Source: Bythopirellula polymerisocia
Lineage (GTDB): Bacteria; Planctomycetota; Planctomycetia; Pirellulales; Lacipirellulaceae
Direction of reading: 5' to 3'
DNA length: 64,000 nt
NCBI RefSeq assembly: GCF_007860015.1
Contig: NZ_SJPS01000001.1
Span: forward strand, 1 to 64,000
A model generated the notes under the pieces. That model was not told the DNA's origin and did not search any database. It worked only from the letters and a program-made list of their open reading frames with translations. Positions 10,638-15,075 of the stretch are shown here, piece by piece; the first letter of the stretch is position 1; each line of letters begins with the position of its first letter. The position numbers and the translations under genes were made by a program.

Positions 10638-11096
10638 CTACTTCGCGGGCAACTCTATTGCTGGCCAGACATTGACTCCTGCTGTGACTTCTTTTGTGAT
10701 TCCCGAAGTATCAGGATTGGCATAGCGACTCGGAAGTAAGTTTCTGCCATCGCGAATACTTTCTTCGCCACTGCGACGAGGGGCCCGCAATTCGACAGTG
10801 ATCGCATATTTGCCGGGCTGTGCTCCGTCGCCACCTTTCAACGTCGTTACGCTAAACTGGCCTTGCTCGTCGGTTGTCGCCTGAGGTTGAGGAAGTTCTG
10901 CTGCTTGGCCCCCTAATGGATGCAATACCACTCGGGCTTCAGCAATTGGCTTACCTGATTGAAGCAAGGTGCCATGAATCGGCGCGAGCTCAGGACTTTT
11001 GGTCTCGCAACCGAGCAAGATACCCAGCAATAAGGCAAACAAGCCGCATCTGCCGAGAGCACAATGAAAGCAATACTCCGTTCCCTGGGATCTCAT
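10638..11096 (-). CDS. Small lipoprotein with carboxypeptidase-regulatory/transthyretin-like fold
   Basis: This is a 152-residue protein. A hydrophobic N-terminus ends in LLGC (lipobox, Cys at about residue 29). The remainder begins [21 protein letters not shown] and contains [24 protein letters not shown]: the planctomycete version of the carboxypeptidase-regulatory-like beta-sandwich. It is immediately downstream of a DUF1559 gene on the same strand, with overlapping ends (11093-11096), so the two are surely co-transcribed. The same gene pair recurs at 46193/47433. A surface-exposed structural role is inferred only from the signal and fold; no enzymatic motif is visible. Confidence 0.75.
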
Positions 11097-12094
11097 TCCG
11101 TGCTAGTTTCTCCACCTGCACGAGTTACCATGTCAGCCAGAGTTTTCAATGAAATGCTTTCGCTCAGAAACCGCACCGAGCCATCGGCATAGGCAAAATT
11201 GGCTCCCCCAGGATGCAAGCTATAGAAACAATGCCCCCACTCATTCGAATTATTGATGGACACCTCTCCAGGAATTATGCCAAATGCGGCCTTCCAAGGA
11301 TTGCGGAGTCCAATTGGATAGGGATTATCCGTCGTGGCCCAGGCGCCACCCCGAGCCCGAATTGGTGGAGATCCAGTGTAATCGACTCCAAATAGCTGGC
11401 GTCCGCGATAAACATCTTCTCGGCCAGCACATTCACCCAAAAGAATACTGTTGGATGTCCCGTCGGAAATCGTGGTCATTCGATTGTGTTGATTGTTTTC
11501 ATATTGCTCGCCTATGACTCCGTCGAGCACGGGATTGGTCGAGCCATCTGAAAGCAAATCATTCGAGTTCACAATTTGCTGGTCTGCGGGGAGCGAGAGA
11601 TTGATGTCGGTGTGTACTCCCGTTGGGGGGAAGTAATCGCCACAGGCCCCTGTCTTGTTGGGAGGTGTGCTCTCAGGTTTATCCTGCAATCGATCTTGAT
11701 CGGGAGTCGAAGGGCATAGGAGCAGTGGCAAAGGGACTTGGGCTATGCTGCGGTTTGGTTCCCGCCACCAATCCTCTTTGAGATCGTAGCCAGCGATGAG
11801 ATTTCCTTGTTCGACAAATGGAAGTACAAAAGGTGCCCAATTGTTTTTGCCACGCGCGGGAGCCACAGGAGTCAGAGTCGCCAAAGGAAACTCCATGTGA
11901 GCACTTTCATAATTCATGAACGCGAGAGCCACTTGCTTAAGATTATTTAGGCACTGACTCCGCCGAGCCGCCTCTCGCGCCGCTTGAATTGCAGGTAGCA
12001 AAAGCCCCACTAGCACGCCAATGATTGCAATCACGACCAATAGTTCGACCAAGGTAAAAGCACATTTATATCGTCTCAAGCGATACCTCAACAT
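11093..12094 (-). CDS. DUF1559-domain pseudopilin-like protein
   Basis: This protein has 333 residues. The ATG at 12094 gives a short basic leader ([11 protein letters not shown]) directly before the type IV pilin-like cleavage and methylation site [22 protein letters not shown], then [20 protein letters not shown], the standard DUF1559 opening. The C-terminus has the family end [23 protein letters not shown]-rich stretch upstream (GGAAAAGAGAG) could serve as ribosome binding site. An in-frame start at 12301 would add 69 residues that break this architecture and overlap the histidine kinase gene. The family is strongly expanded in planctomycetes, is processed by a prepilin peptidase and has no agreed function. 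It is followed by a lipoprotein gene with a 4-base overlap. Confidence 0.88.
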
Positions 12095-12288
12095 AGGCTT
12101 CGTACTCTCTTTTCCAACGGTGTGCTTCTCATTTCGCCGTATCAAGTACACAATAGATGAATACCCTCGCTTCTGGAGTTTAAGTCCACTGGATATGCTG
12201 GTACATATCTCAATTTGCGACAGGTAGTGTTCGTTTTTTCGACACGCTTGTTTTAATTGCATAGAATTATGCGAGTCATACATCACCC

Positions 12289-13683
12289 GTGAGATCTCCA
12301 CTTCGATATCAGATCATGTTTCCTTTGGTCGGGGTCTCACTCGTTAGCCTGCTAGCGGTTGCGTTGATCGATGCGTATCTTGCTACGACTGAAACACGCT
12401 CGACAATAGACCGTCAGTTGCAAGGAGTAGTTCATGTCCTAGCGACTTCCAATTTTCCACTTACCGACACAGTGCTCCAACAGATGAAGGAATTATCTGG
12501 TGCGGATTTCGTTCTGGCAGACCAACACGGCAATCACCTTTCGACCACATTGCGAGACTCAATTGTTGAACTTCCCGAAAGCAGCCTGAGCGACTCTGGT
12601 CAAAAGGTGGCCCTAGGCCCACAACTCACTGTTGCTGGCAAGCAGTATTTTCATTCCTCAGCGAAATTGCAGAATCGGACGACTAGAGATGGACCGGACA
12701 TGCTCCATACCCTTTTCCCTTGCGATCAATACAATGCAGCTTGGCGAAGAGCCTTCTTACCCCCACTTGTTGTCGGCATCCTGGCCATTGGCGCGGTGGC
12801 AGCAGTTACCCAGTGGATTGCAGGCCGCATTAGCAATTCGCTCGGTGACTTAAGCACGGGAGTTGCTCGATTGGCGCAGGGAGAGTACGTGACTGTCGAA
12901 CTACCTCTCAGGGATGACGAAGTGCGCGACCTGGCACAGTCGATCAATCACACTTCGAATCGATTAGCTGACTACGAACAACAGATTCGCCAAACCGAAC
13001 AAGTCCGCACGGTAGCAATGTTGGGGGCAGGACTTGCTCATGAGATTCGCAACGCCGCGACCGGTTGCCGGTTGGCAATCGACTTGCATGCCGAAAACTG
13101 TGGCACTGTCACAAATGACGATGGATTAGCAGTTGCCAAAGGTCAATTGCAACTGATGGAGAATCGTCTTCAGAGCTTCCTCAAACTCGGCAAGGAAAAC
13201 GAAAGCGTACCCAACGAAGAGGTTGATCTCAATGAGCTTGTCGAAAGCATATTGCCTCTGGTGATTCCAGCGGCCCGGCATGCCAAAGTTCAGATAGACT
13301 GGCGACCCGAAGAGATGCCAATCAAGGTGTTGGCCAACGCCGATACGCTCTCAATGGTGATCGTAAATCTACTACTAAATGCCGTCGAAGCCGCACAACG
13401 ACATTCTGTGAATTCGTATACTCCGCCCCAAGTTCTACTGAGTGTCGGACGATCCTCCGACAATCAGGCAGAACTGCTTGTCTGCGACTCGGGAGATGGC
13501 CCTGCGACAACTATAGCCGAGAATCTGTTCCAGCCGTTTGTTTCTACCAAAGCCGAAGGAGTAGGATTAGGACTGGCCGTAGCAAGCCAAGTTGCTATTG
13601 CTCATGGAGGTAAAATTGATTGGTGCCGCCAAAATGGACAAACGGTATTTCGTTTTAGTGTTCCTTTAATGGAAAAGAGTTGA
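12289..13683 (+). CDS. Membrane sensor histidine kinase
   Basis: This protein has 464 residues and starts at a GTG (12289); an in-frame ATG lies nine codons downstream. One transmembrane helix (residues ~9-30) precedes a periplasmic sensor of ~125 residues. A second helix (~158-176) leads into a HAMP linker (~178-230). The dimerisation box carries the phospho-acceptor His251 in [12 protein letters not shown]. The ATP-binding domain shows an N-box ([13 protein letters not shown]), a G1-like SGDGP and G2 GVGLGLAV. All elements for autophosphorylation are present. Three bases separate it from the response regulator gene downstream, its evident partner. It is divergent from the DUF1559 gene, and the ~195 bases between the two starts must hold both promoters. 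Confidence 0.9.
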
Positions 13684-13686
13684 TCC

Positions 13687-15075
13687 ATGTCCAGAATTCT
13701 TGTTGTCGATGACGAGTCAGCGATCTGCTGGGGAATCAAAGAACTCGTTAAGTCGCTCGGGCACGAAGCGGAAATAGCTGCGTCTGCTGAGCAAGGGTTG
13801 AAGCTGGCCGCGAATTCTAGCTTTGATCTTTTGCTCCTTGATGTCCGACTACCGGGAATCGATGGGCTGACGGCGATGCCACAATATCGGGAACATCTGG
13901 GTATTGCGCCGATCGTGGTGATGACTGCTTTTGGAGACCTGGAGACAGCCGTTCGTGCCGTTCAGAACGGGGCGTATGAGTACCTGCTCAAACCGTTTGA
14001 TTTGGCAGAAGTCCGTGCTACGATCAACCGCGCATTTGCCGCGAATTCCGCGGACAGTTCACCTGGTTGCACAAGGCTAGGCGAAAAGATGGTCGGCGAG
14101 ACGTCCGTGATGCAGGAAGTCTTCAAGCGAATCGCGTTGGCTGCTAGTTCAGATGTTTCTGTTCTGCTGCAGGGTGAGCCTGGCGTTGGCAAGGTGGATG
14201 CTGCCCACGCAATTCACCATCATTCGTCCCGATCCACACATCCATTTGTGGTTGTCAACGCTGGGTCACTAAGTCCAACGATGGTCGAAACGGAACTCTT
14301 CGGACATACGCTTGGCACTTCGTCTAATTCAATTCAAGCACGAAATGGATTGCTCGCTGAGGCCAACGGGGGGACTTTGTTTCTCAACGAAGTTGCAGAG
14401 ATTCCGTTGTCGATCCAAGCAAAGCTCATGCGTGTATTCGACAAGAGCGATGTGTTGCCTGCAGGATCCGATCGAGTGTTCAGCACGAACTTCCGCGTAA
14501 TTTCAGCGACTAGCCGAGATTTGTCCCTCCGAGTCCAGGCAGGTGAATTCCGCCAGGATTTGTATTATCGCCTGAATGGATTCGAAATCACAATCCCTCC
14601 ATTGCGCGAGAGAGTAGACGACATTCTGCTCTTAGCTCAGCACTATGCAAAGACTTTAGGAGGGGTGAATGCTTCTTTTGCAGAGAAGACTCAATTAGAG
14701 CTGACCAAGCGACAGTGGCATGGCAATCTGAGTGAATTGCATGATGCAATTAAGCATGCCATAGCTGAAACAGGGTCGGAAGTTATTCTCCCTTCACATT
14801 TGCCAGAACCCCTCCCTCTTCGGGCAGTAGAGAGCGAATCAACTAATCCCACTGAAACGTTGGAACAACTTGTAAGAAGGCGTGCAGCCGATTTGCTCGG
14901 CGATCCAGCCAGCGAAGGTCTGGTTTATGAAAGGCTTCTGGAAGAGATAGAGCCGACCCTGTTGCAAACTGCCATGGATCGCTTCGCCAATGAATATGCC
15001 CCTGCTGCTCGGGCTCTAGGTTTACATCGCACCACGCTTAAACGCAAACTCGACCAATATGGAATGGCAAAGTAA
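13687..15075 (+). CDS. NtrC-like response regulator with degenerate sigma-54 interaction motif
   Basis: This protein has 462 residues: a receiver domain with Asp8/Asp9, Asp52 (LLLLDVRLP), Thr80 and Lys102; an AAA+ domain at ~135-375; and a C-terminal Fis-type HTH (AARALGLHRTTLKRKL). Walker A is present (GEPGVGKV, residues 163-170). However, where activators have GAFTGA after ELFGH, this protein reads GTSSNS (210-215). The Walker B/GTLFLDE position reads LFLNEV (231-236), losing the usual Asp. The arginine-rich sensor part (FRQDLYYRLNGF, PPLRER) is normal. GAFTGA contacts sigma-54, so this regulator probably does not activate sigma-54 promoters in the usual way. It may act through DNA binding on sigma-70 promoters, as known for other GAFTGA-less relatives such as TyrR and HupR. 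Confidence 0.9.
   Translation: MSRILVVDDESAICWGIKELVKSLGHEAEIAASAEQGLKLAANSSFDLLLLDVRLPGIDGLTAMPQYREHLGIAPIVVMTAFGDLETAVRAVQNGAYEYLLKPFDLAEVRATINRAFAANSADSSPGCTRLGEKMVGETSVMQEVFKRIALAASSDVSVLLQGEPGVGKVDAAHAIHHHSSRSTHPFVVVNAGSLSPTMVETELFGHTLGTSSNSIQARNGLLAEANGGTLFLNEVAEIPLSIQAKLMRVFDKSDVLPAGSDRVFSTNFRVISATSRDLSLRVQAGEFRQDLYYRLNGFEITIPPLRERVDDILLLAQHYAKTLGGVNASFAEKTQLELTKRQWHGNLSELHDAIKHAIAETGSEVILPSHLPEPLPLRAVESESTNPTETLEQLVRRRAADLLGDPASEGLVYERLLEEIEPTLLQTAMDRFANEYAPAARALGLHRTTLKRKLDQYGMAK

Follow-up and report, generated by a model that had tools for sequence, protein, structure and literature searches.

A GAFTGA-less response regulator in Bythopirellula polymerisocia that has probably been uncoupled from sigma-54

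Within the 64,000-nucleotide window analysed here (contig NZ_SJPS01000001.1, positions 1 to 64,000), Bythopirellula polymerisocia encodes a response regulator with a receiver, an AAA+ domain of the sigma-54-activator type and a Fis-type HTH (13687-15075, + strand; ORF, Pfam and family alignment). Judged by its translation, the protein keeps its homology to sigma-54 activators in the AAA+ domain but has neither GAFTGA nor an intact ATPase site. We consider it probable (roughly 0.75) that this is a working two-component regulator that has been uncoupled from sigma-54, uses its old operators at sigma-70-type promoters, and retains the AAA+ domain for oligomerisation.

The ORF is uninterrupted (462 aa) and matches Response_reg (residues 4-113), Sigma54_activat (135-301), AAA_lid_14 and HTH_8 (418-458) in Pfam, the PF00158 match scoring 174 bits against a cut-off of 20.2. 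Related solved structures are those of NtrC1, NtrC4-type, LuxO and ZraR proteins. Identity as NtrC (TIGR01818) or as the PEP-CTERM regulator PrsR (TIGR02915) was rejected, with scores of 346.7 and 232.3 against curated cut-offs of 558.6 and 502.6, respectively. AlphaFold2, run on a 48-row alignment, modelled the three domains confidently (mean pLDDT 88.9, pTM 0.73) and the L1 loop less so (block mean 69). The receiver residues D8, D9, D52, T80 and K102, at columns invariant in the 48-row alignment, are present, and Walker A (GEPGVGK at 163) and both arginines of the FRQDLYYRL stretch (R289 and R295) are kept. The alignment and Pfam thus bear out the initial annotation, which had described receiver residues, Walker A and the HTH as retained, and the translation confirms the two replacements it had reported: GTSSNS instead of GAFTGA in the L1 loop (residues 210-215; 14314-14331, + strand) and NE in Walker B, which reads LFLNE, with N234 (codon AAC, 14386-14388, + strand) instead of Asp. 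Two further changes are S349 (14731-14733, + strand) in place of the Arg of GNxREL, which is Arg in at least 95% of intact members and lies at what we take to be sensor II, and L171D adjoining Walker A. Among the 139 orthologues scored as intact, conservation reaches at least 95% at each of F212, T213, A215, D234 and R349, and this protein is altered at all five.

The gene for the cognate histidine kinase (HAMP, HATPase_c; ORF and Pfam; 12289-13683, + strand) ends 3 bases before the regulator gene, an order retained in nearly all loci listed. By its phospho-acceptor pocket and this adjoining kinase, the protein classifies as a two-component response regulator. Divergent from the kinase gene lies a DUF1559 gene (11093-12094, - strand) encoding a prepilin N-terminal motif and an H-X9-DG C-terminal domain; its proposed start, the ATG at 12094, was chosen by the prepilin motif, and the mechanical ORF extends to 12301. 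A small gene (10638-11096, - strand), with weak Ig-like and CarboxypepD_reg-like matches below cut-off, overlaps the DUF1559 stop and is probably on the same transcript; its homologue adjoins the DUF1559 gene at locus L129 too. The DUF1559 gene and small gene of L129, which belongs to the other lost lineage, are 68% and 48% like those at window positions 10638-12301, versus 38% for the DUF1559 gene of the nearest orthologue's locus, L110, which suggests exchange of the divergent cassette. A DUF1559 gene often fills the divergent slot at other loci, and the neighbour varies: it is squalene-cyclase-like at L132 (G001), and PEP-CTERM-like genes lie near L118 (G034) and L124 (G030).

At E<=1e-100, 27 of 43 Lacipirellulaceae genomes have an orthologue, and at 1e-95 at least 192 of 396 genomes sampled from the order Pirellulales have one; a subset of those from the order-level search was inspected. 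Nearly all of the 191 loci inspected for the motif, which include some duplicates between collections and two too short to show it, retain GAFTGA or a variant; loci with GAFTHA and L248 (AAFTGA) were scored as intact. A Desulfovibrio sigma-54 regulome paper (PMC4641369) regards variants such as GAFTDA and GAFTHA as functional. Clear losses are found in this gene, in L110 (68% identity; GGSSDS, with DE kept), in L128 and L129, whose replacements differ from each other, in L122 (GTFPGA) and L131 (EAFTAA), scored as lost though their change is milder and both without a divergent DUF1559 gene, and in L081-L083. The last form a distant clade with a replacement or shortening in the GAFTGA region and, in two members, an altered Walker B (LED, LDD), probably marking another departure from sigma-54.

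Comparison with these orthologues also bears on whether errors in the sequence or its assembly explain the unusual residues. Walker B NE was seen in this gene only; it is a single-base change in a 27-contig assembly, and D234N may be such an error. Close orthologues with an intact motif, the refuting outcome named in the initial annotation, were not what the comparison showed: GAFTGA-intact orthologues start at approximately 56% identity, and the closest orthologue of all, at 68%, has lost the motif as well and has also changed at R349 (S here, D in L110) and L171. An error at GAFTGA is thereby ruled out, and errors as the general explanation are barely credible. The question of whether the changes are conserved, raised in the initial annotation, accordingly divides: the GAFTGA loss is common to the nearest orthologue, and the Walker B change is private, since that neighbour has DE.

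On a 156-row quick tree the intact/lost label requires 5 changes, and on a 40-row careful tree built without the L1 columns it requires 4 (best tree and 5-95% bootstrap range), a single origin of loss appearing in 0% of 200 bootstrap trees of the latter. A tree constrained to unite this gene with L110, L128 and L129 is worse by 9.0 log units and is not rejected (AU p 0.082), so that independence of the losses in this gene/L110 and in L128/L129 appears likely rather than proven.

The changes are concentrated in the AAA+ domain. With the 139 intact members as reference, this gene departs at 9 of 54 AAA+ sites that are at least 95% conserved, at 0 of 25 in the receiver and at 0 of 5 in the HTH. 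The AAA+ count for L110 is likewise 9 of 54, and L128 and L129 have 9 AAA+ departures each, L129 with 1 receiver site in addition; ten intact close relatives have 0-2 departures each. Identity between this gene and L110 is 0.63 in the AAA+ domain versus 0.80 in the receiver and 0.83 in the HTH, and between L128 and L129 it is 0.59 versus 0.81 and 0.78, respectively. In intact within-clade pairs the AAA+ domain falls no more than 0.09 behind, and some pairs have it ahead of the receiver or HTH; more distant rows without loss also show AAA+ gaps of up to 0.07.

That the AAA+ domain changes fastest in the lost pairs, with several catalytic positions gone, is what would be expected of a regulator that has lost its output and is becoming a pseudogene, as is the degeneracy of the operator copies beside the regulator gene described below. 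However, the ORF is open in two genomes 32% apart, the receiver and HTH are intact at highly conserved sites, the kinase is kept, and a tandem operator before a squalene-cyclase-like gene is kept in both genomes. The dN of the regulator (0.24) is far below its saturated dS (2.8), which argues that the gene is under constraint, and decay by frame shift was ruled out by flanks that align and by residue changes that stay in frame. We therefore regard decay as unlikely.

The genome remains equipped for sigma-54. One rpoN is present, so loss of sigma-54 from the genome was ruled out. PF00158 has 15 strong and 2 weak matches in the genome. Each of the 14 strong ones besides the regulator has DE together with GAFTGA or a close variant, and the regulator's motif changes exceed chance. 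At <=1 mismatch, 94 occurrences of the -24/-12 consensus (7 exact) were counted, versus 46 for the reversed pattern. No second regulator of the same family was found in the genome, the next best reaching 34-35% identity among the matches listed.

Counting of dyads in the intergenic regions yielded TGTCG-N7-CGACA; 16 of 47 loci have an exact copy, and shuffling gave at most 2. Of the 138 loci kept after duplicate rows were left out, 43 have the dyad at <=1 mismatch within 600 bp around the kinase start, compared with 3 in the regulator-gene control and 1 in shuffles. Copies are often tandem, 20-22 bp apart, and their centres are mostly 80-130 bp upstream of the -24 element. Of 146 genomes, 23 contain the tandem form at <=1 mismatch, with no match to the reversed pattern, and all 23 are among the 90 genomes with an orthologue, versus 0 of 56 without (Fisher p 7e-6); the other 67 genomes with an orthologue have no tandem at this level. 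A -24/-12 element scoring >=9 reads outward from 23 of the 25 tandem sites outside this genome and inward from 3. For the intact state, the restriction to genomes with an orthologue and the outward pairing link the operator to the regulator and to sigma-54, and the tandem TGTCG-N7-CGACA is probably the family operator. Neither TGTCG nor CGACA was found in the main text of the Desulfovibrio regulome paper (PMC4641369). An orthologue in G023 (L121) has an in-frame TAG and a weak -24/-12 (5.2), yet carries GAFTGA and an exact operator copy.

Promoters of the divergent gene were scored with a hand-weighted -24/-12 matrix (threshold 9) over the 260 bp that precede the prepilin motif. As 111 of 167 kinase-bearing loci have no divergent prepilin motif, the comparison is limited to the remaining 56, of which 47 were scored (43 intact, 4 lost) after removal of the duplicate contigs L056, L057 and L058, of L098, and of the false motifs at L188, L210, L217, L223 and L225. 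An element reading into the DUF1559 gene reaches threshold in 33 of 43 intact loci (10 have none), against 4 of 43 on the opposite strand and 1 of 43 in a far window. None of the four GAFTGA-lost loci has one (1.4 here; 5.9, -2.3 and 1.1 in the others). Intact and lost scores differ at Mann-Whitney p 0.002, uncorrected for kinship and spanning two lost lineages only, and a tree-aware pair test of co-loss had 1-2 pairs and no significance. Across 1,100 bp around the kinase start of this locus, on both strands, no -24/-12 scores above 4.6 (shuffled mean 7.5). The sigma-54-independent mode that had been proposed for the regulator and its divergent DUF1559 gene is thus backed by comparison, the element being absent from all four testable lost loci.

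The regulator might instead still activate sigma-54 by means of an atypical L1 loop, its promoters being missed by the matrix. Sigma-54 is encoded in the genome, and some EBPs are regarded as functional despite an altered motif, such as DVUA0100 of Desulfovibrio with GVATGV (PMC4641369). Here, however, F212, T213 and A215 are all altered, along with D234 and R349, and -24/-12 elements are absent on the gene side of both operator sites while the same matrix finds them in intact relatives, which makes persisting sigma-54 activation highly improbable.

Two operator-like copies lie between the DUF1559 and kinase genes: TATCTCAATTTGCGACA (12206-12222), inside the block best conserved with L110, and TGTTCGTTTTTTCGACA (12228-12244), 22 bp from the first and identical in L110. 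Each has 2 mismatches, a level that 34 of 138 regions reach when shuffled and that 73 of 138 control regions reach, so that the copies stand out only by their tandem 22-bp spacing, their position and their conservation in L110. Their placement from the prepilin motif is equal in the two loci (152/174 here, 151/173 in L110), and the rest of the intergenic region has diverged. Among the other GAFTGA-lost loci, L128 has two copies at 1 mismatch, L129 one exact copy, L131 one at 2 mismatches and L122 none at <=2. Neither the intergenic region here nor a 500-bp stretch of L110 yielded inverted repeats of >=10 bp, and no further tandem operator with a 5-base gap was found elsewhere in the genome at <=3 mismatches.

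A sigma-70-like pair, TCGACA-N17-TAGAAT (12239-12267, + strand), precedes the kinase gene, and its first hexamer overlaps operator copy 2, an arrangement compatible with autoregulation. The pair is weak, since one was found against a shuffle mean of 0.7, near chance, and its second hexamer is missing in L110. On the DUF1559 side, the block CTATTGTGTAC (12146-12156, - strand), the same in L110, is a candidate -10 region; no recognisable -35 accompanies it, and the upstream region of the gene holds no convincing sigma-70 promoter.

The second operator site of this genome lies outside the window, at C1:98455-98492, and is a tandem operator at 1 mismatch, among the matches listed. In locus L267 (G000:C1:98455 onwards) the operator occupies 1501-1538, and the gene downstream of it (1674-2801) encodes a secreted, squalene-cyclase-like protein (SQHop_cyclase_C). 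A syntenic operator with 2 mismatches precedes a squalene-cyclase-like gene in G005. Between operator and gene the best -24/-12 scores are 3.7 here and 4.2 in G005, and a promoter-like pair, TTCACT-N17-TACGAT, is conserved before the gene in both genomes, the operator centres being upstream of it. A -24/-12 scoring 9.0 on the operator's far side (L267, L266) falls inside the upstream coding region and was not counted as a promoter. Six operator-bearing homologues from intact genomes were compared (G064, G031, G016, G030 and a second G025 copy at <=1 mismatch, and G063 at 2 mismatches), and five of them have a -24/-12-like site scoring 9.3-11.8, G030 having none. The squalene-cyclase-like gene carries no operator at <=1 mismatch in the 8 regulator-less genomes examined, and regulator-less genus mates possess the gene without it. 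In G024, a GAFTGA-lost genome, a site scoring 11.2 lies 56 bp before the squalene-cyclase-like gene, where no operator was found at <=1 mismatch.

The overlap of operator copy 2 with the first hexamer of the kinase pair would also suit a protein that mainly represses, blocking old operators including that of its own kinase gene, or that competes by poisoning mixed hexamers of another activator, and the GAFTGA-less NtrC of Caulobacter represses genes too (PMC10274813). Against blocking, the operator at the squalene-cyclase-like gene lies upstream of the conserved promoter-like pair and not on it; against mixed hexamers, the genome search found no second family member (see above). A main role as repressor or competitor is decidedly improbable, and activation by the regulator is more likely than repression.

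For the uncoupled, working regulator that we favour, we infer the following course. The ancestor, like most present orthologues, would have bound tandem TGTCG-N7-CGACA approximately 80-130 bp upstream of a -24/-12 element, and its AAA+ ATPase and GAFTGA loop would have fired sigma-54 RNA polymerase at genes for DUF1559 prepilin-like proteins and at other genes. In this lineage GAFTGA would then have been replaced and the -24/-12 element would have vanished from both operator sites found, with the ATPase changing as well (R349 lost in both lineage members, D234N here only) and the receiver, kinase, DNA-binding helix and operator positions retained. Today the regulator, controlled by its kinase, would occupy the old operators and act on sigma-70-type promoters, its AAA+ domain now serving oligomerisation. 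D234N and R349S together suggest that ATP hydrolysis is dispensable for it.

GAFTGA-less EBPs are a kind already known, and with its lost GAFTGA and its retained DNA-binding domain the regulator adds a member alongside HupR, TyrR and the NtrC of R. capsulatus. HupR controls hydrogenase genes, and TyrR and DhaR are not known to be response regulators. The regulator resembles HupR as a response regulator with lost GAFTGA, and the NtrCs of R. capsulatus and Caulobacter as an NtrC-type two-component regulator without it. In those NtrCs, however, L1 is deleted, whereas here the substitution is of the same length; Caulobacter NtrC requires the Walker B Asp, which is Asn here; and they serve nitrogen control, whereas DUF1559 and squalene-cyclase-like targets are predicted for this regulator. 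TyrR, DhaR and VpsR differ from it in sensors and targets. As described in the literature, HupR of R. capsulatus has lost GAFTGA and is sigma-70 dependent (PMC3162934), the two NtrCs act on sigma-70 promoters (PMC10274813), TyrR and DhaR of E. coli are EBP homologues without a working GAFTGA (PMC3162934), and VpsR of V. cholerae, also without a working GAFTGA, works without ATP (PMC10274813); TyrR, DhaR and VpsR are each reported as sigma-70 dependent or judged not to be sigma-54 dependent. These precedents differ over the need for ATP binding or hydrolysis. Also close are the intact Pirellulales orthologues (e.g. L119, L158, L190), which share the kinase-regulator pair, HTH and operator type, many with a divergent DUF1559 gene. 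Unlike this regulator, they retain the sensor II Arg, DE and GAFTGA, and a divergent DUF1559 gene, where present, is usually preceded by a -24/-12 element. In the titles and abstracts that searches of the open-licence literature turned up, a scope outside which most papers of subscription journals fall, neither this family nor such a promoter switch is described, and for GAFTGA in Planctomycetes that literature returned only a regulon survey that kept just GAFTGA-bearing proteins.

GAFTGA-less EBPs are known singly (HupR, TyrR, VpsR, alphaproteobacterial NtrC), and an exit from sigma-54 is hard to observe. Here both states, intact and lost, coexist in one orthologue family, each with its predicted operators and promoters, and the order in which contact loop, promoter and ATPase changed is therefore testable. 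For a two-component system widespread in planctomycetes, the comparison also provides a predicted operator and part of a predicted regulon, to which DUF1559 prepilin-like proteins belong. More tentatively, at somewhat less than even odds, the whole small regulon has shifted to ordinary promoters, with GAFTGA lost repeatedly, every testable loss accompanied by disappearance of the -24/-12 elements but not of the operators, and the AAA+ domain becoming a non-hydrolysing module for oligomerisation or ATP sensing; if so, the intermediates (GAFTGA lost with DE kept, and both lost) would reveal the order of rewiring. The regulator appears to be a natural example of the rewiring of a bacterial switch.
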